Of a stretch of 63,922 nucleotides of DNA, positions 23,200 through 39,645 are shown piece by piece; position 1 is the first letter of the stretch, and every line of letters starts with the position of its first letter. This DNA is from a virus, in IMG/VR virus record IMGVR_UViG_3300035670_000198, positions 1 to 63,922 of that record; one strand, written 5' to 3'. Under the pieces are notes generated by a model, which ran no database searches, had not been told where the DNA came from, and saw only the letters and a program-made list of their open reading frames with translations. The translations under genes and the position numbers were made by a program.

Positions 23200-23206
23200 T
23201 ATTTAG
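23200..23206 (-). promoter_or_regulatory. late promoter CTAAATA for the glycosyltransferase set
   Basis: CTAAATA on the minus strand contains the TAA stop codon of the giant fibre gene and lies 28 bp before the ATG of the GT4 gene, with GTGAG between. Confidence 0.75.
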
Positions 23207-26200
23207 CGCACGTCCTTCATAGTCAACGTACCCCAATACGTCGTGCCGCCATCATAAGTGATAAATGTCCACAAGTCGCGAGCATTTGCAGCAGTTGTAG
23301 CAGGAGGAATTGCTCCACCAGCCCAATATACTGTATTCGCAAACGTTGGGAATCTACCACCAGTGCCATCATTGAGCAATAGTAGTGAGAACATTTGCGC
23401 AGTTCCAGAACTTGGAGCGTTCGTAAATGTAAACGTTGTATTGCCTGTCAATGTATGGCGGAAGTAGTTAGCGTTTGACAAGTCGACAGTATTCGCTGTT
23501 GAGGTTGATGTATTGACAACCATAAAGTCTTTACTTGACTTCAACGTTGCTGTCAAATTACCGCTCATCGTCACAGAATTGTTTGATACGTTTGCAACAA
23601 GAGTTGAAGAACCAACAGTGAATACATTTCGAGTTAGATTGAACGTTAGATTGGCTGATCCACCAGTGCTTCCATTATTGTTGAAAAACACTTGAGTGTT
23701 TGATCCACCAATTGGTCCAGTTGGTCCTTGCGGTCCAGTAACACCTTGCGGTCCTTGCGGACCAGTAACACCTTGTGGACCCTGAGGACCAGTTGATCCT
23801 GCTGGACCTTGAGGACCTGCAACGCCTTGAGGACCTTGAGGACCAGCAACACCTTGCGGTCCTTGTGGACCAGGGACATTAGAAACTCCACTTGGTCCTT
23901 GTGGACCTTGTGGTCCGAATACACCTTGAGGACCTTGTGGTCCTTGTGGTCCTTGTGGTCCTTGAGGACCAACGTCGCCCTTATCACCTGTCACAGCAAA
24001 TGTGATAACAACATTTGCATTATCCGCAAACTGAGTAGTTACACCAGAGTTGTATGCAATTGGAATGTCAAAGTGATCGTTATGATCAATGTGATTTGCG
24101 ATGATAGAGAAGAATACAAAGTTTGCACTATTGGCTTCTTCTGTGATTTTGATAGTCCCTTTGATTGAACTCGTTGAGTCGTCAATCGTTTGGATAAATG
24201 ATGCAATATTTGAATCGCTTCTATCGATCACAGAAATACTCATTGTATTTGCTAATGAGAAATTAGTGTTTTCGACAACCACATAGCCATTGGCAACATT
24301 TTCTACATCAGTATCAGTATCAAACTTGTAATAGAATGACGCGCCACCAAAGTTACCAGTCTCACCTTTTGGTCCTTGAGGACCCTGCGGACCTTGTGGA
24401 CCAACGACACCCTGAGGACCTTGCGGACCAGTTGCACCTGTTGGTCCTTGTGGACCCTCAACACCCTGTGGACCCTGTGGTCCTGTATTTCCTTGTGGAC
24501 CAGATGGACCTGTTGGACCAGAGTTTACTGCAACTTTGATTACAGCTGATGAGTTGGCAACATAATATGTTTTACCAGTTGATTCGTTATGAACAAAGCG
24601 ACCAATACCAATATCCGTCCAAATGTCTCTGCTACCACTAATAATCCATGAGCCATTGTTTAGCGTATACAAGTCACCATTTCTAATATCAAAAATATCA
24701 TTTGTATCAGAAGTGAAGCCCAACACGGTGAATGTTGAACTTGCTTGAGAATATACACTAAATCCGTATGGGCTCTCACCCTTGAACTTATCGAGAATTG
24801 GATTGCTGTCCAAATCTAGCGTTAGAGTTGTGGCAGCATCAAGAGTTGTGTTACCAAGTTGTGTTGTAACAAACGTAAATTCATTACCAGTACGAGTTGC
24901 TTGAATTGTTACACCGTCTGGATAACTTGACCAACCGCCAGTAAAGGTGACATTTGCAGAACCATCAACTAATTTTACTGCATCTGATCTGAGGTAGTTG
25001 TACCAAATTTCCCAGCCAGTGATTGTACCGCCAGTATCGCGCAAGGCAGACAATGTATACTCGCGTCCAGTGTCTGGATCAACATACCAACCAACAAGAA
25101 TACCGATTGTGTCATTGTCAGCATTAGTTGATGCAAGTTTTGCCGTCAACGTATAGTCTGAATATGATTCTGGTGAAACAAATCCAAGATAAGTTCCGCT
25201 ATTTGTGGTGCTAGTGATGACGCCAGTATTTGCATCAAATGACCATGCGCTCAATTCACCAGAATTCGCTGGTTGATTTTCAGTAGCGTCGTGAGAGAAT
25301 CTTGTCCAAGTATTGAAGATCGTTGCATAATCTGTCAAAGTATTTTGAGCAGCACTCAATTCACCATTTGTTTCAATGAAGTATCCTTTGACAAGAGTAT
25401 AATCATTTTCTCTTTCGTAAGTTGCCGTGTTCGCCAAGAAAGATACTTGACCCTCAAGACCAACTGGTGCAACATTAGCAAGTTGTTGACCGTCAAGCAA
25501 GTCAGCATCAAGAGTAGACAAATGACCATCATTGCCAGCATGCCATACAGTATTACGATTGATCATCACACCATTGGCGCTGACGACATCAAAGTTGATT
25601 CTGTCATCAGCATCATTTGTCATGGTGAACGTCATTTCTGTCGCTTCACCACCAAGTGGATTCAATAACTTGATTGTTGCAGTATCGCTGCCACCACCAA
25701 ATGCGTCATTAGGGAATCTAATACCACCATTTGCTCCTGAAGCAACATTCAAGCTGCTTACATTTGCGTTATGAGTGCTGAAGAGTCTTGCCGTTGAGTC
25801 AAATGTAAGATCAGTACATCCAACTGCCGTCATGCTGCTATTATAAATGATTTGTTTGTCAGCGCCAGCAACAGGACCTGTTGGACCTTGTGGACCCAAC
25901 TCACCAGTTGAGCCGATTGCGCCTTGAGGACCCTGAGGACCTTGAGGACCTTCAACTCCCTGCGGACCTTGTGGACCCTGTGGACCTTGCGGACCATCAA
26001 CACCCTGTGGTCCTTGAGGACCCTCTGGTCCTTGTGGTCCTTGTGGACCAAATAATCCTTGTGGACCTTGAGGTCCTTGTGGACCAAACACACCTTGCGG
26101 ACCTTGAGGACCAAACAAGCCTTGTGGACCTTGTGGACCTTCTGGACCCTGTGGACCTTGTGGACCCTCAGCGCCTTGTGGACCCTGAGGACCATCAACG

Positions 26201-28854
26201 CCTTGCGGACCTTGTGGACCAACACTACCCCTATCGCCAGTTCTGCCAAATGAAACTAGAATTGCTTGATCGTTTACAAATGAACTTGAAGAACCAGTGA
26301 TGTGCGTTACATCAATCTCATAGTATCCAGTTAGATCAGTGAGATCATTGATGTTATAAAGTTCAAATGTACCAGCATTTGTCTTATCAAAGATTTTCAA
26401 ATAACCTTTGATTGTACTTGTACTATCATCAAATGCTGTCAAGAAGGTTAGAATATTTGAACCATCAGCATCAACGTTGTCAATATAAACTTTGGTTGTA
26501 AGTGTTGGAACAACATTATTGAACTTGAGTTTACCAACACCAGGGTCAGTACTTGTAACTTCATCATTGAATTCATAAGCAAAACTGATTCCACCATATG
26601 CGCCTTGCACACCTGATGGACCTGATGGACCCATTGGTCCTTGAGGACCTTGTGGTCCACGTGCACCAATCGCACCTTGTGGACCCTGTGGACCTTGTGG
26701 ACCAACTTCACCAGTAACACCTTGCGGACCTTGTGGTCCAGTTTCGCCTTGTGCTCCCTGCGGACCTTGTGGACCCTGTGGACCCTGTGGACCTTGAGGA
26801 CCTTGTGGACCAAACACGCCTTGTGGACCTTGTGGACCAACAATTAGACCAGCATCAACCCATTGTACAAGATCATCGTTATAGACATAAAGATGTCCAA
26901 TGCTTGTTACAACATAAGCGTCAGCATCATTTGCTGAGCCAGGAAGATCAGTAACATCAATTACTGTACCAAGTACATTGATGCCACCACCAGGAACACC
27001 CTGTGGACCTTGCGGACCTTCTGGACCCTGTGGACCTTGTGGTCCGAATACACCTTGAGGACCTTGTGGTCCTTGTGGTCCAACTACACCTTGTGGTCCT
27101 TGCGGACCATCAACACCTTGCGGACCTTGCGGACCTTGTGGACCAATGAATGGACCAGCATCAACCCAAACAGCTGGATGCGGACAATCGTCCCAAACAT
27201 ATAGATGACCGTCAGCGATTACAATATATGCATCGCCAGCAGTTTGGTCAGTAATTGAATTGATTAGAATTTCATAAGTTGGTACAGTGCCAACAAGACG
27301 AATGCCAGCGCCAGGAATACCTTGAGCACCACTTGGTCCTTGTGGACCTTGCGGACCAATTGCACCTTGAGCGCCACTTGGTCCTTGTGGACCTTGTGGT
27401 CCTGTGAAACCACGATCACCTTTGACGCCTTGTGGACCTTGCGGACCTGTTGGTCCACGTGAACCTTGTGGACCACGACGACCTGTTGTAGCAGTAACTT
27501 CCCAAGTCATACCGTTGTAAATGAATTCAACAGTAACGCCTCGGAGATCAAGTCTTACAATTTGATCGCTACCTTCAATGGTATTATCTAATGATTGGAT
27601 GAAGAGATTATTTGCGCCCCAATCATCACCGTCAGTAACTTGAACATAGCCACCAAGAACTGGAGTGTTTGGTAGTGTGATTGTGAATGGACCATTGACT
27701 GTTGTGTTAGCAACAATACGATCGCCATCAACTGCTGTGTAATCCAATGAGTGAACTGACCAGTGTTGTAGCGCACCGCTTGCACCTTGTGGACCTGTTG
27801 GACCAGCAACACCTTGCGGACCACGTGGACCAGCAACACCTTGAATACCTGATGGACCTGTTGGTCCCTGTGGACCAGATGGACCAGAAGCACCAACTAA
27901 ACCTTGCGGACCAGTAGGACCCTGTGGACCAGCAAAACCTCGAGGACCAGATGGACCTTGTGGACCAATGTCACCTTGCGCACCTTGAGGACCAGCAACG
28001 CCAGATGGACCTTGCGGACCAGCAACACCACGTGGACCCGTTGCACCAGATGGACCAGCCTCACCTTGTTCACCTTGCGCGCCCGACGGACCAGATGGAC
28101 CAGTAGGACCAACAGCACCAGTTGCGCCAGATGGACCTTGTGGACCACGCGCACCGCTTGGACCAGATGGACCTTGTGGACCTTCATCACCAACAGCACC
28201 AGATGGACCAATAGGACCTTGAGGACCTGCAGCACCAACCAAACCACGTGGACCTGAAGGACCTGATGGTCCAGCAAAACCTTGAAGACCTTGTGCACCT
28301 GATGGACCTTCTGGACCCTGTGGACCAGCAACACCTTGAGGACCTGATGGACCTTGAGGACCAGCAACACCACGTGGACCGCTTACGCCTTGCGGACCTT
28401 GTGGACCAGCATCACCCTTTACGCCTTGTGGACCAGAAGGACCTGATGGTCCAGATGGACCTTGCGCGCCAGCAACACCTTGTGGACCGCGAGCGCCTGC
28501 AGGACCACTTGGACCCTGTGGACCAATCTCGCCCTGAGCACCTTGTGGACCAGATGGTCCTGTGGGACCGCGACTACCAACAGGACCAGATGGACCAGAT
28601 GGACCAGAAGCACCGCGAGGACCAGAAGGACCAGAGACACCTTGTGGTCCTTGAGGACCAGCAGCACCTGAAGGACCTTGTGGACCGCCTGACGGACCTG
28701 TAGGACCGAGTCCACCTTGAGGACCTGATGGACCTTGTGGTCCTTGAGGACCAGCAGGACCACCTGCGCCGCGACCAGTTGAAACTTTTACAACTGGTTT
28801 TTGAGTTGAAACTTTGATTGTCTGGCCAATAGCCGTGCTGACATTCGCTGACAT
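23203..28854 (-). CDS. giant collagen-like tail fibre protein
   Basis: The 1883 residues are the largest product in the window. After about 28 residues, a long Gly-Pro-x tract runs to near 360. Then come a beta domain (about 361-455), more collagen tracts separated by two similar small domains (each ending near [12 protein letters not shown]), and a YGGISF module. A long region around 1000-1450 contains a [15 protein letters not shown] fibre motif and a LamG-like stretch, followed by a second module ([10 protein letters not shown]), more collagen, and a C-terminal 120-residue domain shared with the 402-aa fibre gene at 39652. It is expected to form a long trimeric rod and is probably a tail or head fibre contacting the host. 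Many Pro residues make it a possible substrate for the neighbouring oxygenases and glycosyltransferases. Confidence 0.9.
23705..28775 (-). repeat. Gly-Pro-x coding repeat tracts of the giant fibre
   Basis: Tracts of 9-bp units lie at about 23705-23980, 24355-24530, 25870-26235, 26600-26850, 26995-27150, 27315-27485 and 27780-28775. The N-terminal tract (27780-28775) uses many GPS, GPR and GVA triplets, while the later tracts are nearly uniform GPQ, suggesting different ages or expansion histories. Confidence 0.9.
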
Positions 28855-28855
28855 A

Positions 28856-29191
28856 TTACTGAGTTACCTGAGGGAGAACTGTAATGATTCCTTCGACGAT
28901 TCTTGTAGTTAGATTCGCAGTATCCTTTTGTTTCACATCAAATAAGTAACGTCCAGCCTTTATATTGGAAGTTGTAGCAGAATTCATGGTAAGAGTGACA
29001 TTGCCATTCGCTGAGTCTACTATCGTGACAGTCAAATTGGCTGTCACATTTGCTGAATAGTATGATTTACGAATTGACGACGTAAAAAGATAGCCTGTTA
29101 TATTTAGAGGGCTTCCGTCGTCTTGGGTCAGATCGAGGTTATAGGAGAGATCTGTTCCCTGGTCAAGATCTAATTCTACAAATTGCGCCAT
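28856..29191 (-). CDS. small beta-sandwich virion protein
   Basis: The 111 residues read as a single all-beta domain: [31 protein letters not shown], then [17 protein letters not shown] and [12 protein letters not shown]. This resembles the N-terminal domain of baseplate upper (BppU-like) proteins and small virion proteins that precede fibre genes in cyanophages. It may be an adapter for the giant fibre, whose ATG lies one base after this stop. It has a perfect TATAAATA promoter, so adapter and giant fibre share a late transcript. Confidence 0.75.
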
Positions 29192-29248: not shown

Positions 29249-30055
29249 TCAATCCCCTGTATATCTCTCCAATTTGAACTTTTTCTTGATCATATAATAC
29301 TTACGATACCAGTTCCCTTCGTAAAATTTCTTCGGCGATTTATGAGAATCTAATTGTTCAATAGTGCCTGGACCATAAGAAGCAGAAAAATCTTCAGTTG
29401 TTTTGATTGGGATAACTTGCAGCAATGGAGTTCCTGCTGGGATGGTAATATCTAATCTTCTTTTTGGGGAAAAGATCACATTTGCAGTCGTGAACTCTCT
29501 ATAATCTACAACTCCAGGATAGAGATATAGATCCTCAAGATATGGGCAGTGATAGAAAGCAGGAAGCAATAACGCAGAAACGTTTCTCTTTCCGTAGATT
29601 TTCCATGGACCTGGCATATTCCATGCAGTTGGTTTGATATCATCTTTGAATGTGAACAAACCATTTGTAACATCAGTAGCCATTGGAAATGGTTCTCTTA
29701 CTGGAAGTTCTGGTGGATGAATTTCCATTGGATTTGAGAATGGATGTGGTTTCGGTTTTGCTGCCTTATCGCCTGATGACGATCCATATCGAATCACAGT
29801 GCCTGCTTTATTTGATTTGATATGAATATCAATCCATGCTGTGATCAGATAACCCATGCGAGAGTAATCATGCATTCCAGGGCATCCTGGGAAATTATAA
29901 TTACCCTGTTCTTTTTCTTGAAACTCTTTGAAAAATGGTTTTACATCTTTCGCAAGAAGAATTGGGTAATGTGTATAGACCTGTCGACTCGAGTCAACAA
30001 ATTCTAGATCAGGAGTTTCTTTTGAAAAGAAATTGAATAACTTATTCATCTTCAT
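29249..30055 (-). CDS. conserved phage protein, paralogue of the next gene upstream
   Basis: The 268 residues align by eye with the 248-residue neighbour. Both have a GY/GF-x-I-x-x-x-x-D-I/L-H core (YLITAWIDIHI here), a segment ending in a hydrophobic LLLPAFYHCPYLEDLYLYPGVVD, and the closing motif IPAGTPLLQVIPIK. Family and function are not known to me. The protein is rich in aromatic and Pro residues, has no signal peptide, and looks like an all-beta enzyme or binding domain. It overlaps its paralogue by 14 bp and follows an oxygenase gene, so a role in the same modification pathway is possible but unproven. Confidence 0.65.
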   Translation of the reverse strand: MKMNKLFNFFSKETPDLEFVDSSRQVYTHYPILLAKDVKPFFKEFQEKEQGNYNFPGCPGMHDYSRMGYLITAWIDIHIKSNKAGTVIRYGSSSGDKAAKPKPHPFSNPMEIHPPELPVREPFPMATDVTNGLFTFKDDIKPTAWNMPGPWKIYGKRNVSALLLPAFYHCPYLEDLYLYPGVVDYREFTTANVIFSPKRRLDITIPAGTPLLQVIPIKTTEDFSASYGPGTIEQLDSHKSPKKFYEGNWYRKYYMIKKKFKLERYTGD

Positions 30056-30788
30056 GTTTTCTCTTTCTCAATTCCCAAGTATAATGATGAGTGCGTGTGT
30101 GCTGAGCCTTTTGAATCTTTTCAATGTGCTTCTTCTCAGCCATTGACATTGGACGAACTTTTGGTTTACGATTATTGAATGAACCACGCTTGACTGGAAT
30201 TGCCGTTACTAGTGGTGTTCCTGCAGGCAGACTTCCGTCAAAGTCAGGAACTAACCAAGCCGCAGGAAAATTCACTTCCTTTGGATATGCATCAGTATCA
30301 ACATATCCAGCAAGGCATCGGAAAGGTTGATCAAAATGATTCATTGGCGGGATAAACAAGGTTGACCAACCTGGCTTTGTTTTGATTACCCAACGATTGA
30401 TAAACTTGACAGGATTGCCATGCTTGAATCCCAGCGCAGCCTTACCACCAACCTGACCTGCGTCGTGGAACTCAGCAACCGTAAGTCCTGGAGGATTTAT
30501 AATCTCAATTTGTGTACAGTTGTGATTTGTTGCAACATGAAGATCGCCAGCAAGTGGAATTGTAAACCCAAGAGACATAGCGTCGAGCATCGGTAAACAC
30601 TTCTTTGCTGTCATAGTTGGATTGCCAAAAACATCTCGTTTACCAGGATCAAATGTTGGCGCAAGGTCTTTGAACCATTTCGGAAGATATTTTACAGCAG
30701 GGCGAGGTTCTGGAATTACACCATCGAAATCTGGATGACAATAAAATTCCATTACATCATTGCCCCAAAACTTGAGCAAATTTTTCAT
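30042..30788 (-). CDS. conserved phage protein of unknown function, paralogue of 29249-30055
   Basis: The 248 residues include EFYCHPDFDGVIPEPRPAVKYLPKWF at the start, KKCLPMLDAMSLGFTIPLAGDLHVATNH, GWSTLFIPPMNHFDQPFRCLAGYVDTD and LPAGTPLVTAIPVKRG, then a basic His-rich tail (HTRTHHYTWELRKRKHEDE). I have seen similar small proteins in marine T4-like phages without assigned function. It begins one base after the oxygenase stop and is followed by its paralogue, forming a three-gene unit behind the CTAAATA promoter at 31430. Confidence 0.68.
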   Translation of the reverse strand: MKNLLKFWGNDVMEFYCHPDFDGVIPEPRPAVKYLPKWFKDLAPTFDPGKRDVFGNPTMTAKKCLPMLDAMSLGFTIPLAGDLHVATNHNCTQIEIINPPGLTVAEFHDAGQVGGKAALGFKHGNPVKFINRWVIKTKPGWSTLFIPPMNHFDQPFRCLAGYVDTDAYPKEVNFPAAWLVPDFDGSLPAGTPLVTAIPVKRGSFNNRKPKVRPMSMAEKKHIEKIQKAQHTRTHHYTWELRKRKHEDE

Positions 30789-30789
30789 A

Positions 30790-31392
30790 TCAATGAGTCC
30801 TCTCGCCCATAACCCAGCATACTAACGATTTACGAACACCAGAGGTGACAGGCGCAACACGATGTGGCATAAATGAAGAGAAGAAAATAACTTCACCACG
30901 TTTTGGTTTTAGGACTAGTGGTTCGTTGACTCTGCCATGTGGAACTAATTGAAACTCACCACCGCCATAATCATCTGGATCAGTGAGCATGATACTAGCA
31001 CTAATTTTACGAATGTAATTGGTACTGCCAATGTCCATGTCCATGTGCCAATCATAATGTTGTTTTGTTCTGGCTTTATAGACGGTATACTGAAAATTAT
31101 CGAAACCGTCAATATTATACATGAAGTGGTCGTAATTTACTTGAGAAAGCAAACCACCAAATTTTTGAAAAATCCAGTCTGAGTTTTGATCGTGCATAAG
31201 CCACATGATATCACTATCGCGCGCTTTTTTATTCACGGATCCTGTGCTTGTGGTGCCACCGATCTGACCTCGTTGAAACTTTTGTAAGTCTTCAAGATCA
31301 ATAATCTTGTCGCATTCTTCGTCGGTGAATATTTGGTTTGTGATGCAATACTGATCTAGTTTTTTTGCATACCTTTGCACTTTGAATGGCAT
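30790..31392 (-). CDS. 2-oxoglutarate/Fe(II) oxygenase, prolyl-hydroxylase-like
   Basis: The 200 residues form a complete oxygenase of the prolyl-4-hydroxylase/PiuC-like type. The iron ligands are His116 and Asp118 in YDWHMDMD and His177 in FMPHRVAPVTSG, and Arg187 in GVRKSL would hold 2-oxoglutarate. ISASIMLTDPDDYGGGEFQL is the characteristic core strand. GGAG precedes the ATG, and a CTAAATA promoter overlaps the stop of the Tyr-Asn repeat fibre before it. The substrate is unknown; candidates are Pro or Asn in the adjacent fibres. Such oxygenases are frequent in cyanophages, where other roles are also proposed. Confidence 0.92.
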   Translation of the reverse strand: MPFKVQRYAKKLDQYCITNQIFTDEECDKIIDLEDLQKFQRGQIGGTTSTGSVNKKARDSDIMWLMHDQNSDWIFQKFGGLLSQVNYDHFMYNIDGFDNFQYTVYKARTKQHYDWHMDMDIGSTNYIRKISASIMLTDPDDYGGGEFQLVPHGRVNEPLVLKPKRGEVIFFSSFMPHRVAPVTSGVRKSLVCWVMGERTH

Positions 31393-31429: not shown

Positions 31430-31436
31430 TATTTAG
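31430..31436 (-). promoter_or_regulatory. late promoter CTAAATA for the oxygenase unit
   Basis: CTAAATA on the minus strand contains the TAA stop of the 884-aa fibre and lies 37 bp before the oxygenase ATG. Confidence 0.75.
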
Positions 31437-34087
31437 TCGATCTTTACAACTATTTGACCGCCTGTAGGTACAACTACTGGGTAGTTGGCAGAGTCAGGAT
31501 ACACATATGTATCTACTGGTGTTGGTGGAACATATGGTGCTGGTTCTCCAGCATTGTATCCTGCAATATTTCCTGGAGCATTATAGTTTGCGCTTGCGCC
31601 AGCACCACCTGGGAAATAAACACCAAGAACATTTGTTGGGCTTCCTGCTGTACCAAGAATTGGTGGGTTATACGTTGCAGGATTGCCAGCATTATATGAT
31701 GCGGCTGTATTACCTGAATAAGTTGCTACGTTTCTTGGATTATAAGTTGCAGGATTACCAGCATTGTATGAAGCAATATTATTGCCAGTAAATGTTGCAG
31801 GTGAAGGTGGATTATAACTTGCTGGATTGCCAGCGTTGTAATTAGCAAGATTGTTGCCAGTATAAGTTGCAGGATTTCCAGCATTGTATGAAGCAGCGCT
31901 GCCAGCATTATAATTGGCAAGAGTGTTTCCTGAATAAGAAGCAATGCTTCCAGGATTGTAAGATGCGACATTTCCTGCGTTATATCCAGAAACATTGTTG
32001 CCAGTATAACTTGCAGCAGAGCCAGCATTATACACAGCAGACCCAGGATTATATGCTGCTATGTTTCTTGGATTATACGTCGCTGTTGTGCCAGCGTTGT
32101 AGTTAGCGTTGTTGCCAACATAACCAGAAATATTTGTTGGATTATATGATGCTGGTGATCCAGAATTATAATTTGCTGATCCAGGATTATAACCAGAAAC
32201 GTTTCTTGGATTATATGAAGCAACAGTTCCAGGATTATAGTTTGCACTATTGCCAGAATATCCAGAAACATTGTTGCCAGTATAAGAAGCAGGTGAACCT
32301 GTGTTGTAATTAGCAGAACCTGGATTATAATTTGCTACTGTCGGTGGATTGTATGAAGCAACAGTTCCAGGATTATAGTTAGCAGATCCAGGATTATAGT
32401 TTGCTACTGTTGGTGGGTTGTAACTTGCTGGAGTTCCAGCATTGTAATTCGCTGATCCTGGATTATAGCTGGCAACATTTCTTGGATTATAAGTTGCAAC
32501 TGTTCCAGCGTTATAGTTTGCTGTACCTGGATTGTAATTCGCAATAGTTCTTGGATTATAAGTTGCTACAGTACCAGCATTATAGTTCGCAGTTCCTGTG
32601 TTATAATTTGCCACTGTTGGTGGGTTATATGACGCTGGGTTTCCAGGATTATAATTTGCTACACCTGGATTGTATCCGCCAGTCGCGTTTCCAGGTGATC
32701 CTGGAATTGATGAGTAATAAATGTAGACATACAAATTGATTGCTTCGTGCGGACCTGCTGCTGGATTACCATATGCATCGGTTGGGGCTGGAGCTGGTCC
32801 TGATCCAGATTGCGGATAATATTGAAATCCAATTTGAACAGGATCTTCATAGAAGAAATAATCAAATCCAAAATCATGAACATAGAATGTTCCAAACCAG
32901 TTTGTTGCTGTCGGTGGATTATATACTTGAGTGTTGCTAGAATAGCCAGCAATGTTTCTTGTATTATAAGTTGCGGGATTTCCAGGAGTAAAGTTGGCGT
33001 TGTTACCAGAATATCCAGCAACGTTTCTTGGATTATAAGTCGCCGCCGTTCCAGGATTATAGTTTGCTGTGTTACCAGAATACCCAGCAACGTTTCTTGG
33101 ATTATATGTTGCTGCAGTGCCAGGATTGTAATTTGCAGTATTTCCTGAGTATCCTGCTACGTTGCGAGGATTATATGATGCTGGATTGCCTGGAGTGAAG
33201 TTGGCATTGTTACCAGAATATCCAGCAACGTTACGAGGATTATATGTTGCAGCGTTTCCTGGAGTAAAGTTGGCGTTGTTACCAGAATATCCAGAAACAT
33301 TTGTAGGATTATAACTTGCTGGAGAACCAGTATTGTAGTTAGCCGAGCCAGGATTATAACCAGAAACGTTTCGCGGATTATATGATGCTACATTGCCCGC
33401 ATTATAATTTGCACTATTCCCAGAATATCCAGCAATATTGTTGCCAGTATAAGATGCTGGAGAACCTGTGTTATATGTCGCGCTTCCCGCGTTATATCCT
33501 GCTACGTTTCTTGGATTGTAAGTAGCAGGAGTGCCAGCATTATAGTTGGCATTGTTGCCAGTAAATCCAGAAACGTTTGTCGGATTATATGATGCGATGT
33601 TACCAGTGTTATAACCAGCAACGTTGCGAGGATTGTAACTGGCAATATTATTGCCAGAATAAGACGCTGCGCTTCCTGAGTTATAATTTGCATTGTTGCC
33701 ACTATATGAGGCGACATTGTTGCCAGAATAGGAAGCAGGATTCCCAGAATTATAGTTGGCATTGTTGCCAGTATAAGATGCTGGGACTGGCGGATTGTAA
33801 CTTGCTGGGTTGCCAGCGTTATAGGTCGCAGCATTATTGCCAGAATAAGATGCCGTGGTTCCAGCGTTATATGTTGCAGGGCTACCTGAATTGTAGGTTG
33901 CTGCGCTGTTTCCTGTATATGTGGCTGGTGTTCCTGGAGTTGCGTTAGTACCTGTGCCTGCGCGTCCAGAGACTGAAGCATTGAATCGACCGTATGGGAT
34001 CGTTATGCTGGATGTATTATTGAAAGTGGTTGTGTTTCGAAATGCCGAACCGATCCAGCTTTTCAACAGGTCTGTGTGTATGGGCAT
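31433..34087 (-). CDS. Tyr-Asn repeat fibre protein (complete architecture)
   Basis: The 884 residues have four parts. An N-terminal anchor of about 50 residues ends in IPYGRFNASVSGRAGTG. A very long array of 7-8-residue units follows, with consensus Y-N-(P/A/T)-G-(N/S/T)-x-A, for example YNPGTVAS and YSGNNAN. A non-repetitive island lies near residues 391-465 (WFGTFYV, DPVQIGFQYYP, NPAAGPHEAI). The C-terminal cap contains LGVYFPGG and ends VPTGGQIVVKID. Almost no charged residues occur in the array apart from the Arg of YNPRNVA units. The regular Tyr spacing suggests a stacked beta-solenoid or amyloid-like rod, and I know no named family for it. Tandem CTAAATA/GTAAATA promoters precede it and an oxygenase gene follows it. 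A virion fibre role is inferred from the neighbours. Confidence 0.8.
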   Translation of the reverse strand: MPIHTDLLKSWIGSAFRNTTTFNNTSSITIPYGRFNASVSGRAGTGTNATPGTPATYTGNSAATYNSGSPATYNAGTTASYSGNNAATYNAGNPASYNPPVPASYTGNNANYNSGNPASYSGNNVASYSGNNANYNSGSAASYSGNNIASYNPRNVAGYNTGNIASYNPTNVSGFTGNNANYNAGTPATYNPRNVAGYNAGSATYNTGSPASYTGNNIAGYSGNSANYNAGNVASYNPRNVSGYNPGSANYNTGSPASYNPTNVSGYSGNNANFTPGNAATYNPRNVAGYSGNNANFTPGNPASYNPRNVAGYSGNTANYNPGTAATYNPRNVAGYSGNTANYNPGTAATYNPRNVAGYSGNNANFTPGNPATYNTRNIAGYSSNTQVYNPPTATNWFGTFYVHDFGFDYFFYEDPVQIGFQYYPQSGSGPAPAPTDAYGNPAAGPHEAINLYVYIYYSSIPGSPGNATGGYNPGVANYNPGNPASYNPPTVANYNTGTANYNAGTVATYNPRTIANYNPGTANYNAGTVATYNPRNVASYNPGSANYNAGTPASYNPPTVANYNPGSANYNPGTVASYNPPTVANYNPGSANYNTGSPASYTGNNVSGYSGNSANYNPGTVASYNPRNVSGYNPGSANYNSGSPASYNPTNISGYVGNNANYNAGTTATYNPRNIAAYNPGSAVYNAGSAASYTGNNVSGYNAGNVASYNPGSIASYSGNTLANYNAGSAASYNAGNPATYTGNNLANYNAGNPASYNPPSPATFTGNNIASYNAGNPATYNPRNVATYSGNTAASYNAGNPATYNPPILGTAGSPTNVLGVYFPGGAGASANYNAPGNIAGYNAGEPAPYVPPTPVDTYVYPDSANYPVVVPTGGQIVVKID
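31545..33960 (-). repeat. Tyr-Asn 21-24 bp coding repeats of the 884-aa protein
   Basis: Roughly a hundred units of 21 or 24 bp encode the YNxGNxA-type peptide. The array is broken once, at about 32685-32915. Subfamilies (YNPRNVA, YSGNNAN, YNPGSAN, YNAGNPA) alternate in higher-order blocks of 3-4 units, pointing to block duplication. Confidence 0.9.
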
Positions 34088-34115
34088 CTATACCAAAATC
34101 CATTGCTAGTTTGGA

Positions 34116-34129
34116 TATTTAGTATTTAC
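34116..34129 (-). promoter_or_regulatory. tandem late promoter words GTAAATA-CTAAATA before the 884-aa fibre
   Basis: Two adjacent words on the minus strand (GTAAATA at 34123-34129, CTAAATA at 34116-34122) lie between the GlcNAc-transferase-like gene and the fibre ATG at 34087. Confidence 0.7.
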
Positions 34130-34133
34130 CGAA

Positions 34134-35096
34134 TCAATCGTATCGATCAGGAATTTCCCAGTCATTGACCACATCTGGAGGGAGAAGAATACTCCTCGAG
34201 ATGGCTCTATTTTCCAGTTTTCGATTGATATAATCGACGCCAGAATACTTACGATATTCTTCGAAGAACTCGTCGCTGAAACTATCCAAGAAATTGCGAA
34301 ATTCTTTTCTAGATTTTTCTCGATTTCTATTGAGTTGTTCGTGCGAGACAACCTGATTCACATCTTGTTTAGTGATATATCGGTGTGTATCTGTCAAGTG
34401 ATAGCAATGAATTCTTCTTGGAGCGCAAAGTTTATATCCAGCCGCAAATGAAGCCAGCGTCATATATTGTTCTTCGCCCTCAAAGAAAATGCGAGGATTC
34501 ATCCCAACGTTTCTCAACCAATCACTATGTGTGAAGAAGTTTCCAGCAAATAAGTGAATGGTTGGGTGTAGATGATCTTGTGTCGCTTCTCGAAACTCTC
34601 CGTGAGCGCCAAGAATATAATTCTCATGGAAAGACCAATATCCTGCTTTGACAGTAATATTGCCATGACGATCAAGGAATGGCGTTCCATCCTCTTGCAT
34701 TCTAAATGAACCACAATTCGCGTCAATGATGATTCGATCAGTTTGATGCTGTTGCATTCCAAGTTTGAAATCATTGATCAAATAGCGATCCCAATTCTTA
34801 TCAAAAAGCATATGAGAGTCTACTTGATAGTAGAACTCTTCATCATCGAGTTGAATCGAATTTAGATGTCTTGCCCAACCAACGCCATCTGAGAATTTGG
34901 CATCAATTCTTTTATATCGAACATTTTTATTTTGAGCAAGATCTGGATATTTGGCTTCTAGGCTATCAGCATAGTCAGTTTGTTCAAAGACGCCATAAGT
35001 TATTTTTGTCAGTTGAGATTGCATCTCCATCATATTGCGTAGAGTTTGGTGGAGAAGCGGATCTCTATATGAGACGATACTGACAAAAATTTTCAT
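34134..35096 (-). CDS. glycosyltransferase of the Skp1-hydroxyproline GlcNAc-transferase type
   Basis: From the ATG at 35096 the protein has 320 residues. The start is chosen because GAGGGG lies 6 bases upstream and the ATG overlaps the previous stop (TAATG); the upstream TTG is not needed. It matches the GlcNAc family (PF11397) pattern: KIFVSIVSYRDPLLHQTLRNM at the N-terminus, GVFEQTD, then GVGWARHLN and EEFYYQVDSHMLFDKNWD with the DSH motif at 93-95 in place of DxD, and FFEGEEQYMTLASFAAGYKL further on. The eukaryotic founder adds GlcNAc to a hydroxyproline made by a prolyl hydroxylase. Here the gene is coupled to an oxygenase homologue and flanked by repeat fibres. Donor and acceptor are inferred from family only. 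Confidence 0.85.
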   Translation of the reverse strand: MKIFVSIVSYRDPLLHQTLRNMMEMQSQLTKITYGVFEQTDYADSLEAKYPDLAQNKNVRYKRIDAKFSDGVGWARHLNSIQLDDEEFYYQVDSHMLFDKNWDRYLINDFKLGMQQHQTDRIIIDANCGSFRMQEDGTPFLDRHGNITVKAGYWSFHENYILGAHGEFREATQDHLHPTIHLFAGNFFTHSDWLRNVGMNPRIFFEGEEQYMTLASFAAGYKLCAPRRIHCYHLTDTHRYITKQDVNQVVSHEQLNRNREKSRKEFRNFLDSFSDEFFEEYRKYSGVDYINRKLENRAISRSILLPPDVVNDWEIPDRYD

Positions 35097-35659
35097 TAGC
35101 AACCCCTCTTACCCATTACCCATACGTTCAATGACTTTCTCGTTCCAGAAGTGATTGGTACGATTCTTGACGGCATCCATGGAGCATAAAATACTACGCT
35201 ACCAAGATTTGGTTTGATTGGCATGACTTCATTCGGATCGCCAGTATTCATGATCTCAATTTCACCCCCCAAATATTCTTCTGGGTCAGTAAGCATAATC
35301 GATGCGCAGATCTTTCGTTCCCAATTTAGAAACGCGAAGTCAACATCGTAATGCCAACCATATTCTTGATTCTTTTTATATTTGGCATATTGAAATGCAT
35401 CGAAGCCGTCGATATCATACATGAAGAAATCGATATTGATACGACCAATAAGTCCAGAAAACTTATCAAAAAGCCACTGAGTGTCTTGATTTGGCGGTAG
35501 GACTGCTAGATCTGCTTGATTCTTGCCATTTGTTTGTTCTTTAGAAAACATAAGTTTCTTTTCTAAAGAAGTTACTTTATCGACTTCTTCTTGCGTCAGA
35601 AAGTCTGAAACAACAGCAAATTTAGAGAGGATACGATTGTATTTGACAACTTGAGGCAT
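35096..35659 (-). CDS. 2OG/Fe(II) oxygenase homologue lacking the distal His
   Basis: From the ATG at 35659 the protein has 187 residues; GGAG lies 6 bases upstream, and an in-frame GTG four codons earlier is not preferred. It is a clear paralogue of the oxygenase at 30790-31392 along its whole length. HxD is kept (His103, Asp105 in GWHYDVD), as is the 2-oxoglutarate Arg174 in GTRKSL. The distal iron ligand is replaced: the paralogue's MPHRVAPVTSG reads MPSRIVPITSG here (Ser164, codon TCA). It may be an inactive partner subunit, use another ligand, or catalyse different chemistry. Its stop overlaps the start of the GlcNAc-transferase-like gene, so the two are translationally coupled. Confidence 0.88.
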   Translation of the reverse strand: MPQVVKYNRILSKFAVVSDFLTQEEVDKVTSLEKKLMFSKEQTNGKNQADLAVLPPNQDTQWLFDKFSGLIGRINIDFFMYDIDGFDAFQYAKYKKNQEYGWHYDVDFAFLNWERKICASIMLTDPEEYLGGEIEIMNTGDPNEVMPIKPNLGSVVFYAPWMPSRIVPITSGTRKSLNVWVMGKRGC

Positions 35660-35695
35660 AACGAACTCCACTATTCATGATCAACTATTATAACC

Positions 35696-35702
35696 TATTT
35701 AT
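35696..35702 (-). promoter_or_regulatory. late promoter ATAAATA for the oxygenase-GlcNAc-transferase pair
   Basis: ATAAATA on the minus strand includes the TAA stop of the 538-aa Tyr-Asn repeat gene and lies 36 bp before the chosen oxygenase ATG. Confidence 0.75.
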
Positions 35703-37315
35703 TCGATTCTTACAACTATTTGTCCACCTGATGGAACTTCAATTGCGTGATTTCGATAATCAATTTCTTGGTTCTCAAAGTAATAACTAATCTCTTGCTC
35801 ATTGACATAAACGCCAGGAGCGCAAACACCACCACCTGGGAAGTAAACACCAAACGCATATCCAGGTTCTCCAGGAGTTCCTGGGATTGGGAAGTTATAA
35901 GTGCTTGCACTTCCTGGATTATACGTTGCTACAAAGTTTCCAGTGTAACTTGCAATATTGTTGCCAGTATATGTTGCTGGATTACCAGAGTTATAACCAG
36001 AAACAAAGTTAGAAGTGTAAGACGCTGGGTTGCCAATATTATATGATGGAGGTGGTGCTGGATTGTATCCACTAATTGTGTTGCCAGTATATGTTGCTGG
36101 GCTACCAGAATTGTAGTTGGCATTGTTGCCAGTATATCCACTGATCGTATTTCCAGAGAAACCGCCCACAAACGTTTCATTATATGTTGCTGGACTTCCA
36201 GCGTTATAATTGGCATTATTTCCAGTATATGCACCAATTACATTTCCAGAGAAACCACCAACAAACGTTGGATTGTATGTGGCTGGATTACCTTCATTGT
36301 ATGTTGCTGGATTGCCGCCAGGGGCAAATCCAGCAGAGAAGTTTCCTGTGTAATTTCCAGCATTACCTGTATTATAATTTACATTGTTGCCTGAATAGTT
36401 ACCAACAGTAGAAGGATTATAGTTTGCTATGTTACCAATATAATCCGCAACGTTTCCTGGATTATAGTTGGCAGGTGGGCTTGCTGATGGCGTACACTCG
36501 TAATTGGTAACTGTATATTCAATAATTTCTGGAGTTCCAGGAGGTGGACCATAAAAACTTGTTGGAGTTGGGCAGCTTGGATCGCTTCCGCTTCCATAAT
36601 AAGTGCCGCTACCAATTGGGCTACCATCAAACGCAAATACGATTGAATAATTTGTAGTAGAGTTCCAAGTCACACCACCAGCAGCAGGATTATACCCTGC
36701 AACACTTGTTGGGTTATAACCTGAAATGTTTGTTGGGTTGTATGTAGCAACATTTCTTGGGTTGTATGATGCAATGTTTCCAGGAACATAGAAAGCATTT
36801 CCTGGAGTAAATTCTAGAGGATTATACCCAGTGATTGTTGGTTCATTATATGTCGCAGGATTACCGCCAGAAAGAACTGGATTGTATGTTGCATTGTTAC
36901 CAATGTAACCATCTAACGTGCCAGCATTATATTCAGCAGTTGCAGTTCCAGAAGTTCCAGGCTCATTACTTATTACACTGTATGTAATATAAATGTTTTG
37001 ACCAATAGCCTCATGCGGACCTGCTGCTGGATTGGCGTAAACATTTACTGGATCAGGCAGCGTGGGCGTTGTCAAAAATTGAGGATAGTATTGAAATCCA
37101 ATTTGTACTGGATCATCGAAGAAAAACTCAAGCTGTCCATTGTCATTACTAAAAAATGATGCGCTCCAATACACCAATCCACCGCCTGATGGTGGATTAT
37201 ATACCTGCACGTTTCCAGTATACGAAGCAACACCTTCGTTATAACCTGCAAGATTTCCTCCAGTACTTGGATTATATGTCGCAGGATTTCCTGGTTCGTA
37301 GATAGCAGTAGACAT
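35699..37315 (-). CDS. Tyr-Asn repeat protein without N-terminal anchor
   Basis: The 538 residues start directly in the repeat (IYEPGNPATYNPSTGGNLAGYNEG) and lack the YGR...VSGRxGxG anchor found in the other two Tyr-Asn proteins. They contain two non-repetitive islands: one near residues 48-120 matching the 884-aa protein's (DPVQIGFQYYP, NPAAGPHEAI) and another around 215-280 with three Cys-containing strands. The protein ends with LGVYFPGG-like (FGVYFPGGG) and VPSGGQIVVRIE cap motifs. Its ATG overlaps the stop of the Hint-tailed gene by one base (TAATG). Together the pair has the parts of one complete fibre, so the two products probably act together. Confidence 0.8.
   Translation of the reverse strand: MSTAIYEPGNPATYNPSTGGNLAGYNEGVASYTGNVQVYNPPSGGGLVYWSASFFSNDNGQLEFFFDDPVQIGFQYYPQFLTTPTLPDPVNVYANPAAGPHEAIGQNIYITYSVISNEPGTSGTATAEYNAGTLDGYIGNNATYNPVLSGGNPATYNEPTITGYNPLEFTPGNAFYVPGNIASYNPRNVATYNPTNISGYNPTSVAGYNPAAGGVTWNSTTNYSIVFAFDGSPIGSGTYYGSGSDPSCPTPTSFYGPPPGTPEIIEYTVTNYECTPSASPPANYNPGNVADYIGNIANYNPSTVGNYSGNNVNYNTGNAGNYTGNFSAGFAPGGNPATYNEGNPATYNPTFVGGFSGNVIGAYTGNNANYNAGSPATYNETFVGGFSGNTISGYTGNNANYNSGSPATYTGNTISGYNPAPPPSYNIGNPASYTSNFVSGYNSGNPATYTGNNIASYTGNFVATYNPGSASTYNFPIPGTPGEPGYAFGVYFPGGGVCAPGVYVNEQEISYYFENQEIDYRNHAIEVPSGGQIVVRIE
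35890..37290 (-). repeat. Tyr-Asn coding repeats of the 538-aa protein
   Basis: 21-24 bp units of the YNPGNPA/YTGNNIA type fill most of the gene between and around two non-repeat islands (about 36960-37170 and 36480-36670). Confidence 0.85.
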
Positions 37316-39645
37316 TAGTAAGTTAGAACCCCATTAGCATAGAAATTTGGGCTAGACTTATACTTATTATTGAATGTATAGACCGTATATGGATAGTTGA
37401 TTGAAACAATCGCATTGATTCGAACTGCGTTGCCATTCTTATCAACAAAACTATCGCCCACTTGTACCTTCGCCACATCACCCAAAGATCTATATCCTTG
37501 CATTGTCAAGTTTGGATTCATAGAAGCATAACCCTTTCCAATGACGAAGAATGGGTGATCATCAGACGCTCTGACAGAAATGCTATTTTCTAGAATGTAT
37601 TCAAACATCACTCTGTTCACGCGAGTGATAATCTCTGAAACTTCGTTTGTTTCATGCTCGCCTGTATCTGGGTTATACGACAAGATTTGATCACCAACTT
37701 GAATTGTTTCAATTGCCTTGGTTGAACCATCAGCCATTGAGATGAGCGTGTCACCAGCAAAGCAGCAACCACCGCCACCAATTGGTGTTGGCTCATTATA
37801 ACCACCAATTGTTGGTTCGTTATACGTCGCCACTGTGCCTTCGTTGTATGTTGCAGCAGTGCCTTCGTTGTATAGTGCAGTTCCTGCGTTATAAACCTCA
37901 GTGCTTCCACTTGGATTATATCCTGAAATAGTATTTCCAGTGTAACTTCCTACTGTGCCTGGATTATAATTTGCGATATTTCCAGCAACATAATTTGCAA
38001 TTGAGCCTTCGTTATAAATTCCTGTGGCGTTATTGCTGATGTAATTAGCAATGGTTCCCTCATTATAAATTTGTGCACCAGGAGTATTGAATGTTGCGGT
38101 AAAGTTTCCAGTATAAGTTGCAGGATTACCTGTATTATAATCCGCAATTCCTGGATTATACACAGCATTACCGCTATTGTATCCAGCAACACTAGTTGGA
38201 TTATATGTTGCTGGACTTCCAGTATTATAATCACCAACCCCTGTATTGTACAACGCATTACCGCTATTGTAGCCACCAATATTGGTTGGAGTGAATGACG
38301 CTGGATTGCCAGTATTATAGTTTGGATCAGCAGATCCAGGTGGATTATATCCAGAAATTGTAGCAAAGGAGCAGTCAGTGAATGGAGTGCCTGGAGTAAA
38401 TACTGCTGAATTGCCAACAAAGCTGTTTATATTACCAGCATTATAGATAGCAGTGCCTTGATTATAATTGGCATTATTATCTGCATAAGTAATTGCATTA
38501 CCAGCAGTAAATCCTGAAGGGTTGCCAGTATTATAATTCGCATTGTTTCCAGTATATCCACCAATGATATTGCCACCATAAGTGGCTGGTGTTCCAACAT
38601 TATATGCGCTTGCTGTTCCTGGATTATATCCAGAAATATTTGTTGCATTATAACTGCTTGGATTGCCAGTATTATAGTTTGCACTGTTGCCAGTATATGT
38701 TGCAGGATTTCCTGGAACTGCTGGAGAGCAATCGTAGTAGATGATATAAGAATAAACTTGTGCTCCACCACCAACCACGAATCCTGGGAAATTTGGAAAA
38801 TTGCTTGGTGTTACAACAGTCGTTGAGTCTCTCAGAGGACATCCAACAGAAGTCCCCGTACCCTCAAAGGCGAGTTGCTCATAATAGAAATAATCTTCGT
38901 CGAAAATTGTTTCAATAATAACACCATACCAGTTTACAGTGGCTGGATTATATGTGAGTGGACTACCTGCGTTATATCCTGAAATTGTATTACCAGTAAA
39001 CCCAACAGGATTGCCAGTATTATAATTCGCATTATTGCCTGAATAAGCAGAGATACTATTTGAACCGTTGACATATGTTGCAGGATTTCCTGGAGTATAC
39101 GTCGCAGTTCCAGTATTATATCCATTGATATTTCTTACATTATAACCACCAGGTGTAGCGGCATTATAAGTTGTGCCGACACCAACGTTATAACCTGCAA
39201 CATTTGTTGCGTTATATCCAGAAATGTTGCCAGCATTATATTGAGCGCCACCTGCGCTTCCTGAGTTATATCCTGTTATGACTGCTGGGTTGAATCCAGT
39301 CCCACAAGGATTATAGATTGCGTTGTTACCACCACTAGCTGGAATTTCAGTATTTCCAGTATATGACGCAGGATTACCAAAATTATAATTAGCACTGTTA
39401 CCAGTATATGAGGCAGTGAATCCTGGATTATATGTTGCAGCAACGCCAGAGTTATATGAGGCTGCGCTGTTGCCAGTGTAAGTTGCAATGTTTCCAGGAA
39501 CTGGACAGTTACCTGATCCACCACGACCTGAAACGTAAAGACGATTTCGACCATATGGAACAAACATATTTCCATATGTGTTGAATACAGTGGAACCGCG
39601 TGTAGCGGTCCATGTTTTTTCTAATTCATCAATACGCTTTGGCAT
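37315..39645 (-). CDS. Tyr-Asn repeat fibre protein with C-terminal Hint (hedgehog/intein) domain
   Basis: The 776 residues comprise an N-terminal anchor (VPYGRNRLYVSGRGGSG near 29-45), a Tyr-Asn repeat array to about residue 615 with one non-repeat island near 235-310, a Gly linker, and a Hint domain from Cys627 to the end. Hint features are CCFAGDTLISMADGSTKAIE with the candidate nucleophile Cys627/Cys628, VGDQILSYNPDTGE, the block-B-like ASDDHPFFV with His697, and a closing NGVLTY. The usual terminal His-Asn of inteins is absent, so full splicing is unlikely, but an N-S acyl shift with cleavage or ligation at the Cys is possible, as in hedgehog or bacterial intein-like proteins. The Hint domain stands where the other Tyr-Asn proteins have their cap. 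Confidence 0.85.
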   Translation of the reverse strand: MPKRIDELEKTWTATRGSTVFNTYGNMFVPYGRNRLYVSGRGGSGNCPVPGNIATYTGNSAASYNSGVAATYNPGFTASYTGNSANYNFGNPASYTGNTEIPASGGNNAIYNPCGTGFNPAVITGYNSGSAGGAQYNAGNISGYNATNVAGYNVGVGTTYNAATPGGYNVRNINGYNTGTATYTPGNPATYVNGSNSISAYSGNNANYNTGNPVGFTGNTISGYNAGSPLTYNPATVNWYGVIIETIFDEDYFYYEQLAFEGTGTSVGCPLRDSTTVVTPSNFPNFPGFVVGGGAQVYSYIIYYDCSPAVPGNPATYTGNSANYNTGNPSSYNATNISGYNPGTASAYNVGTPATYGGNIIGGYTGNNANYNTGNPSGFTAGNAITYADNNANYNQGTAIYNAGNINSFVGNSAVFTPGTPFTDCSFATISGYNPPGSADPNYNTGNPASFTPTNIGGYNSGNALYNTGVGDYNTGSPATYNPTSVAGYNSGNAVYNPGIADYNTGNPATYTGNFTATFNTPGAQIYNEGTIANYISNNATGIYNEGSIANYVAGNIANYNPGTVGSYTGNTISGYNPSGSTEVYNAGTALYNEGTAATYNEGTVATYNEPTIGGYNEPTPIGGGGCCFAGDTLISMADGSTKAIETIQVGDQILSYNPDTGEHETNEVSEIITRVNRVMFEYILENSISVRASDDHPFFVIGKGYASMNPNLTMQGYRSLGDVAKVQVGDSFVDKNGNAVRINAIVSINYPYTVYTFNNKYKSSPNFYANGVLTY
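37318..37767 (-). other. Hint (hedgehog/intein-type autoprocessing) domain
   Basis: The 150 codons from the Cys-Cys pair to the stop codon encode the Hint module of the 776-aa fibre. It has Cys at the N-terminal junction, a DHP block-B motif at residues 70-72 of the domain, and no homing endonuclease insert. The domain ends immediately before the TAATG junction to the next fibre gene. Confidence 0.85.
37790..39490 (-). repeat. Tyr-Asn coding repeats of the 776-aa protein
   Basis: 21-24 bp units encode YNTGNPA, YNPGTAx and YTGNSAN variants, interrupted by one non-repeat island at about 38705-38945. The last units before the Hint domain are YNEGTVA and YNEPTIG types with Glu, unlike the rest of the array. 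Confidence 0.85.

Follow-up and report, generated by a model that had tools for sequence, protein, structure and literature searches.

What does a phage build from proteins made of short, nearly uncharged Tyr-Asn repeats whose genes are interleaved with genes for modifying enzymes? The question is raised by the viral DNA of IMG/VR record IMGVR_UViG_3300035670_000198 (positions 1 to 63,922; this whole stretch of 63,922 nucleotides is called the window below), a fragment of a T4-like myovirus in which scaffold, terminase, neck, baseplate and tail-fibre genes are present. It encodes three repeat proteins, P0001, P0002 and P0003, which an earlier note, made from the sequence without database searches, had described as an apparently undescribed fibre type, plausibly a rod with a ladder of Tyr residues. 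That note had not mentioned the mirror-symmetric arms, the central swappable island, the interleaved enzyme genes or the Hint domain discussed here. We find that proteins of this family run from a conserved anchor to a conserved cap through two arms of equal length, in which length changes are mirrored around a variable central island, and that their genes co-occur with a cassette of enzyme genes. On the strength of these sequence patterns we consider it fairly probable that P0001 and its relatives are hairpin-shaped adhesive fibres of T4-like phages, with both ends at the virion, the arms paired, a variable tip, and a cassette that would modify or assemble the fibre.

Conserved ends, equal arms and an exchanged island

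Relatives were gathered with three profiles, and their loci carry numbers prefixed with L: the anchor gave 39 loci, the glycosyltransferase of the cassette (GT) 80 kept of 126, and the cassette protein DUFa 80 kept of 192. The anchor and the cap are recognisable in alignments across lineages, and 51 of the fibre open reading frames (ORFs) scored have both within one chain, while the repeats between them have been replaced wholesale. The window has the type YNPRNVAGYSGNNAN, L022 has YNTVPGNPNPPNPTNYPYTAAV, L031-L044 have TNYNTNYNVAYPIANQPEAARPATAW and L052 has YNTVPGTTNPTTFPYTPAS; FNIVPGNATG and NFNAPTNGPQ are found in L131 and YNAQNVAS/YNVNNAN in L110, and the periods of other classes are 7, 8, 10, 18, 19, 20, 22 and 27 residues. 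Judged by the 20 classes obtained at 25% 6-mer containment, the repeats are not a fixed "Tyr-Asn repeat family" but one of at least 20 unrelated types between the same anchor and cap. The motif [YF]N is enriched 1.6-6.3-fold in 20/20 classes of the GT-bearing set; as a universal fibre motif it fails, being absent from the small fibre of L182. Neither anchor nor cap gave anything above the Pfam or PHROG cut-off, the anchor profile had no match of note in the PDB, and a suspected kinship of anchor and cap with known Gly-rich phage domains received no support from Pfam.

The order between the two ends is more constant than the sequence. Islands were located by a self-similarity scan, and arm lengths were taken as the distances that separate the island from the end of the anchor and from the cap, a procedure without bias to the centre. 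Most fibres have exactly one interior non-repetitive island, and it is centrally placed: the N and C arms measure 353/358 amino acids (aa) in P0001 of the window, and 343/345, 253/253, 219/220, 192/191, 184/185, 97/112 and 46/55 aa in relatives. Over the classes (one fibre per class; 35 fibres, 20 classes) the two lengths are correlated with a Pearson r of 0.989 and a median difference of 7 aa, and the asymmetry of 0.000-0.089 is to be compared with the uniform distribution from 0 to 1 under random placement (Kolmogorov-Smirnov p 2e-21). Six fibres with a tiny tip (L055, L059, L060, L062, L065 and L066) have arms of different repeat types and switch from one to the other at the midpoint, for example at N/C lengths of 292/293, 264/265 and 290/298. 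The same procedure, applied as a control to 41 other low-complexity proteins of these loci, returned 0 to 14 islands, and the eight control proteins with a single island had asymmetries of 0.30-0.86. In the held-out DUFa set the only new fibre with a scorable island, that of L213, has arms of 87/87 aa, and six others have tips that, judged by eye, lie near the midpoint.

Insertions and deletions (indels) in one arm are answered in the other by indels of like size at the same height from the base. Between P0001 of the window and its counterpart in L003, the N arm differs by +23 aa at height 175 and by -8 at 247, and the C arm by +23 at 183 and by -8 at 253. L003 and L006 differ by one 23-aa indel per arm, at heights 295 and 310, in arms that are otherwise 100% identical; L032b and L035b differ by -5/-40/-18 in the N arm and by -4/-41/-18 in the C arm at matching heights. 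For an unselected test we took every pair of fibres that differed in length and had an identity of at least 75% in each arm, 22 pairs that are not independent of one another. Length differences were summed along the N arm and set against the sums for the C arm, which was read either from the base (mirror) or from the tip (parallel). Mirror pairing fitted better in 22/22 pairs, with a median misfit of 1.4 residues against 18.9 for parallel pairing. Local sequence similarity between the arms is likewise mirrored, in 30/34 fibres. A two-arm structure would explain these indels, because each height would then hold one N-arm and one C-arm segment; the hairpin appears to be the simplest such structure, and an antiparallel dimer its main rival.

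Of all parts of the fibre, the island changes fastest. Among P0001 orthologues it is 15-52% identical, with a ratio of nonsynonymous to synonymous change (pN/pS) of 0.59-0.89, whereas anchor, arms and cap are 74-96% identical with a pN/pS of 0.06-0.31. The arms of the window protein and of its L003 counterpart are 85/79% identical and the islands 17%; for L032a and L033a the values are 95/91% and 26%. Conversely, the island of the window matches that of L022 (47% identity over 86 aa, E 2e-23) though the repeats of L022 are unrelated, and an island swap is also seen in the P0002-type proteins of L003 and L006. In L097 short arms of 46/55 aa enclose a large island of 85. Fast change and exchange are the pattern of a receptor-binding part, and we therefore infer that the island is a variable receptor-binding tip.

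The hairpin fibre would thus have anchor and cap together at the virion end, from which the chain would run out through the N arm to the island, compact and variable, at the distal tip, and return through the equally long C arm. The arms would lie side by side, paired height by height, such that an insertion in one would need a match at the same height in the other. As an interchangeable spacer, their exact sequence would matter little provided both sides match, and the tip would bind the host and be exchanged between phages.

A gene cassette that may modify the fibre

The anchored fibre gene lies directly upstream of OG1, a putative 2-oxoglutarate (2OG) oxygenase. The cassette of OG1, two DUF6065-type proteins (DUFa and DUFb) and usually a PF11397 GT would modify or assemble the fibre. 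Fibre, OG1, DUFa and DUFb are all present in 48/48 GT loci with enough flank, of 56 distinct GT proteins. OG1 has kept the iron ligands H116, D118 and H177 and the basic 2OG anchor R187 in the alignment, and a PDB profile search places it nearest to PKHD-type and PBCV-1 prolyl 4-hydroxylase enzymes. Its paralogue OG2 has lost the distal iron-binding His (Ser in the window; Ser or Ala in relatives' copies) and is probably inactive or altered, a likely pseudoenzyme beside the intact copy. The AlphaFold model of DUFa, of medium confidence (predicted local distance difference test, pLDDT, 73), resembles dUTPases (Foldseek E 4e-4; VIA Z 10.8; root-mean-square deviation 2.6-5 Å); a search of DUFa against PDB sequences gave no match at E<=10, so there is no sequence similarity to dUTPases.

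Because the fibre gene is locked into a cassette with a 2OG oxygenase and a GT, the fibre is probably hydroxylated and glycosylated by it. The most likely chemistry would be hydroxylation of side chains followed by addition of a sugar on the arms, with Pro or Asn as the candidate residue. The essential Tyr ladder and Tyr chemistry of the earlier note are not supported: relatives that share the anchor, the cap and the enzymes have Phe instead (Tyr 1-3%) or quite different repeats, and Tyr-specific chemistry is disfavoured because Phe replaces Tyr across whole lineages. An extensin-like hydroxyproline glycoprotein with Pro as its essential target is weakened by the Pro-poor repeats that stand beside an intact OG1 and GT in L087, L109 and L110.

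The enzymes might instead act on another product, such as the downstream collagen-like long fibre. A GPQ-rich collagen-like protein of 1883 aa does adjoin in the window, and pairs of OG and DUF6065 genes stand beside Gly/Asn-rich proteins in L097 and L129-L147. However, the GPQ-type neighbour is absent in L022, L026 and L110, and the anchored fibre accompanies all the complete cassettes counted above; we regard a different substrate as unlikely.

Several related gene sets were met along the way. A sulfotransferase gene (PF03567, above cut-off) lies between fibre and OG1 at L110:5153-5845 and L185:4685-5392, and it is possible that it adds a further fibre modification in these lineages. The OG1 and DUFa pairs beside Gly/Asn-rich low-complexity proteins (GNTGAAGTGANAGAAG) occur without DUFb or GT at L097:1-5000 and in L129-L147, in the latter about 6 kb downstream of the GT and on the minus strand. 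In L023 a distant PF11397 transferase lies between two genes resembling 2OG oxygenases, along with a structural protein whose repeats read PPTFTAPPTFT; this may be a separate, though related, system. Of 51 phage records with DUF6065, 49 are from haloarchaeal tailed viruses. In L068 (HRTV-17 gp35) the DUF6065 gene, annotated as hypothetical, is near tail-fibre/adhesin genes, and the 16.7 kb stretch of the haloviral locus that was examined contained no homologue of OG1 or GT.

The repeat and the arrangement of its arms

The three ORFs are present in the window where the earlier note had placed them, with lengths of 884, 538 and 776 aa for P0001, P0002 and P0003. The repeat units are real (86/32/46 in the three proteins, in the same order; 1000 shuffles gave means of 5.4/2.7/3.3 and maxima of 13/10/11), and charge is nearly absent (3.3/5.9/7.7% charged residues). 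Two further descriptions were correct in part. Spacing was said to alternate between 7 and 8 residues: 95% of the spacings in P0001 are indeed 7 or 8, but the dominant period is a 23-aa triad of 8-8-7 rather than a simple alternation, with autocorrelation peaks at lags 23 and 46 and a DNA period of 69 bp. The modules said to be shared are shared in pairs, the anchor by P0001 and P0003, the DPVQIGFQYYP/NPAAGPHEAI island and the VPxGGQIVV cap by P0001 and P0002, but none is common to all three; P0003 ends in a Hint domain where the other two carry the cap. The 8-8-7 units have no Gly at every third residue, and Gly-X-Y triplets are not present in the fibre repeat. The pN/pS is 0.39 between triads within the protein and 0.18-0.31 between orthologues, substitutions being mostly synonymous; the repeats are under purifying selection and therefore more than recent DNA slippage.

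The repeat had been thought to belong to no named family, and the searches agree: there was no Pfam or PHROG match to it and no PDB match for P0001. PHROGs gave no match for P0001-P0003 and none for 9/10 related fibres, the tenth having one compositional match of unknown function. This is a real family, without a description in the libraries we searched, and its proteins are best read as fibres.

How the arms are arranged in space is a separate matter. A C2 antiparallel dimer would account just as well for the equal arms and mirrored indels. This would be a rod in which two chains lie head to tail, each anchor beside the partner's cap at both ends and the islands at mid-rod. Such a rod would have identical ends, leaving no obvious way to attach by one end with a variable tip at the other; the part that is exchanged is the island, as expected of a distal tip, and the fibre of L097 looks more like a tip on a short stalk. 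We therefore think the antiparallel rod improbable.

We give a similarly low probability to the Tyr-laddered beta-solenoid or cross-beta rod of the earlier note, in which each 23-aa triad would form one coil and the symmetry of the arms would be incidental. Indels come mostly in quanta of 23/24 aa, and AlphaFold places weak strands every 23 residues in residues 550-700 of P0001. However, these strands reach a pLDDT of only 55-66, other classes have the different periods given above, matched indels of 4-5 aa occur, whole lineages have Phe in place of Tyr, and the arms are too symmetric for this to be incidental. Two solenoid arms could still form a hairpin. Least probable, and in our estimate very improbable, is a disordered, foldless glyco-brush, a flexible linker hydroxylated and glycosylated like plant extensins: low complexity, near-zero charge, free sequence exchange, low AlphaFold confidence and the hydroxylase and glycosyltransferase in the cassette agree with it, but a disordered linker needs neither near-equal arms nor paired indels at equal heights.

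Several observations count against the hairpin fibre and its modification. The AlphaFold monomer model of P0001 failed (pLDDT 38 overall), and the mirror constraint is one that an antiparallel homodimer would impose as well. The repeat classes are partly dependent, several having both a lineage and the NYNVAYP theme in common. In a few fibres (L031) the arms differ by about 28 aa, the switch of repeat type is off-centre in L104/L119, and the multi-island pair P0003/P0002 breaks the simple equal-arm rule. On the side of the enzymes, the loci L185, L195 and L196 from the DUFa scan carry the fibre gene and those of OG1, DUFa and DUFb, with no GT in the flanking DNA, so that the GT is common but non-obligatory; Pro is scarce in the L110 repeats, which weakens plain prolyl hydroxylation, and the small L182 fibre lacks the [YF]N motif. 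The sequence statistics show the conserved ends, the equal arms, the mirrored indels, the variable central island and the co-occurrence of the cassette; that the fibre is physically a hairpin, where on the virion it sits, that it binds a receptor, and which chemistry acts on Pro or Asn are inferred from them. The hairpin is the reading we retain.

The second fibre of the window is split. P0003 carries the anchor and ends in a Hint domain after GGGG-CC, P0002 carries the cap, and the ATG of P0002 overlaps the stop of P0003 (TAATG). Among the fibre ORFs scored, this anchor+Hint/cap-only arrangement is limited to the clade of the window. P0003 scores 42.1 bits with Pfam AXH (cut-off 33) and 25.4 bits with Hint (cut-off 29.7); the Cys nucleophile after Gly and the block-B His (DDHP) are present, and the domain and its Cys are kept in L003, L005, L006 and L046. 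The corresponding Hint-like domains of L001 have no N-terminal Cys, and the corresponding protein of L004 ends in poly-Pro tracts (PPPPEPPPP) instead. The Hint domain might join the two halves. It is quite doubtful that a combined reading holds in all its parts, namely that the rung-paired hairpin would be a new structural class, that the Asn of (Tyr/Phe)-Asn and not Pro would be hydroxylated and glycosylated, and that P0003 and P0002 would be joined after translation by attack of the N-terminal Ser of P0002 on a Gly-Cys thioester.

The fibre genes (Table 1) have baseplate or tail-fibre genes on one side and the long collagen-like fibre gene and an LtfC-type assembly protein on the other. The major capsid protein of the window is at most 56% identical to those of named phages. 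A tblastn search of named phages gave no match for P0002 or the window GT and no isolate with a known host, and in metagenome-assembled genomes the GT was found on two short contigs only. A cyanobacterial host is not indicated, because psbA was absent from the 20 records searched.

Table 1. Repeat fibre genes, their parts and adjoining genes in the window.
Feature	Coordinates	Strand	Basis
P0001, 884 aa, complete putative hairpin-type fibre protein (anchor, N arm, island, C arm, cap)	31433..34087	-	ORF, repeat and arm analyses
P0001 N-terminal anchor, residues 1-48, TTTFNNTSSITIPYGRFNASVSGRAGTG	33944..34087	-	conserved in 20 diverse fibres (alignment)
P0001 N arm, ~353 aa of YN repeats	32897..33955	-	repeat and arm-length analysis
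P0001 central island, residues 398-461, proposed receptor-binding tip	32705..32896	-	sole interior non-repeat segment
P0001 C arm, ~358 aa of YN repeats, length matching N arm	31631..32704	-	arm-length and indel analysis
P0001 C-terminal cap, residues 820-884, GVYFPGG ... VVVPTGGQIVVKID	31433..31630	-	alignment
P0003, 776 aa: anchor, repeats, island, C-terminal Hint domain, no cap	37315..39645	-	ORF, Pfam
P0003 Hint domain, GGGG/CCFAGDT ... ASDDHPFF ... NFYANGVLTY (slash before the Cys pair)	37315..37767	-	Pfam AXH 42.1 bits, Hint E 1.2e-5
P0003 island	38728..38925	-	self-similarity scan
P0002, 538 aa: repeats, two islands, cap, no anchor	35699..37315	-	ORF, module comparison
P0002 first island with DPVQIGFQYYP/NPAAGPHEAI	36962..37174	-	sequence
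P0002 second island, WNSTTNYSIVFAFDGS...	36482..36670	-	swapped between near-identical L003, L006
OG1, 2OG-Fe(II) oxygenase (prolyl-hydroxylase-like), full HxD...H triad	30790..31392	-	PF13640 E 1.8e-15
OG2, OG1 paralogue, distal metal His replaced (MPSRI for MPHRV)	35096..35671	-	PF13640 E 7e-11
GT, PF11397 GlcNAc-type glycosyltransferase	34134..35102	-	E 4.4e-30, 105.8 bits (cut-off 21)
DUFa, DUF6065 protein, predicted dUTPase-like fold	30042..30788	-	PF19541 37.8 bits (cut-off 26.6)
DUFb, second DUF6065-like protein	29249..30055	-	phrog_7084 E 1.1e-13
Collagen-like GPQ-rich fibre protein, 1883 aa, interrupted by several globular islands	23203-28854
LtfC-like assembly gene, upstream of the collagen-like gene	28856-29191

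Comparison with known systems

The likeness of DUFa to the dUTPase/dCTP deaminase fold is confined to the predicted fold of DUF6065, with no sequence match. For the other enzymes a closer parallel exists. PF11397 is, we take it, the family that contains Gnt1, and the combination seen here, a 2OG hydroxylase together with a PF11397 transferase, resembles the Skp1 pathway of Dictyostelium. In that pathway the 2OG prolyl hydroxylase PhyA acts first, and the glycosyltransferase Gnt1 then adds N-acetylglucosamine (GlcNAc) to the new hydroxyl (PMC3515798). Here, however, the putative substrate is a phage structural repeat, and the enzymes have DUF6065 partners. Mimivirus encodes a collagen together with a hydroxylase and a glycosyltransferase for it, L230 and R699 (PMC9546862), and in both cases the repetitive structural protein and both enzyme types are virus-encoded. 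The Mimivirus enzymes act on lysines of Gly-X-Y collagen, whereas the phage fibre is without Gly-X-Y and its enzymes come from other families. If our reading is correct, DUF6065 would gain a first context in phages from this cassette, and so would a PF11397 glycosyltransferase accompanied by a 2OG oxygenase.

The T4-type trimeric long tail fibres (gp34-37) resemble the fibre in genomic neighbourhood and in the modular way in which the part that binds the receptor is swapped. Fibres of the gp37 type have this variable part at the distal C-terminal end. Here, by contrast, the C-terminal cap is conserved and the variable part central, and there is no PHROG match. To our knowledge, based on a literature search limited to open PMC papers, no phage fibre is known in which the base holds both termini and the arms are bound by a mirror constraint.

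The nearest working analogue, unrelated in sequence and with a different type of arm, is the streptococcal antigen I/II (SpaP, SspB), in which a long stalk forms by association of two repeat regions and carries the variable V-domain at its distal end (PMC12974128). No similarity in sequence to antigen I/II was found in searches of P0001, anchor and cap against Pfam and of P0001 and the anchor profile against the PDB. The likeness is one of layout: the chain goes out and back, with a variable domain at mid-chain, the central island in the phage protein, between two stalk-forming repeat arms. In antigen I/II the arms are an Ala-rich alpha-helix and a Pro-rich polyproline II helix, whereas the two phage arms usually share one Y/F-N-P-G-rich type and have equal numbers of residues. 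The phage fibre also differs in having no Ala-rich heptads, no cell-wall anchoring and a dedicated enzyme cassette. If the hairpin is real, it would be a naturally modular scaffold, with constant ends, a free stalk, a swappable tip and its own modifying enzymes. The mirror rule is derived from sequence alone. As an adhesin, the hairpin would depart from the parallel trimer model that underlies phage fibre biology: both ends at the virion, the variable tip at mid-chain, and a stalk seemingly ruled only by the matching of its two sides.

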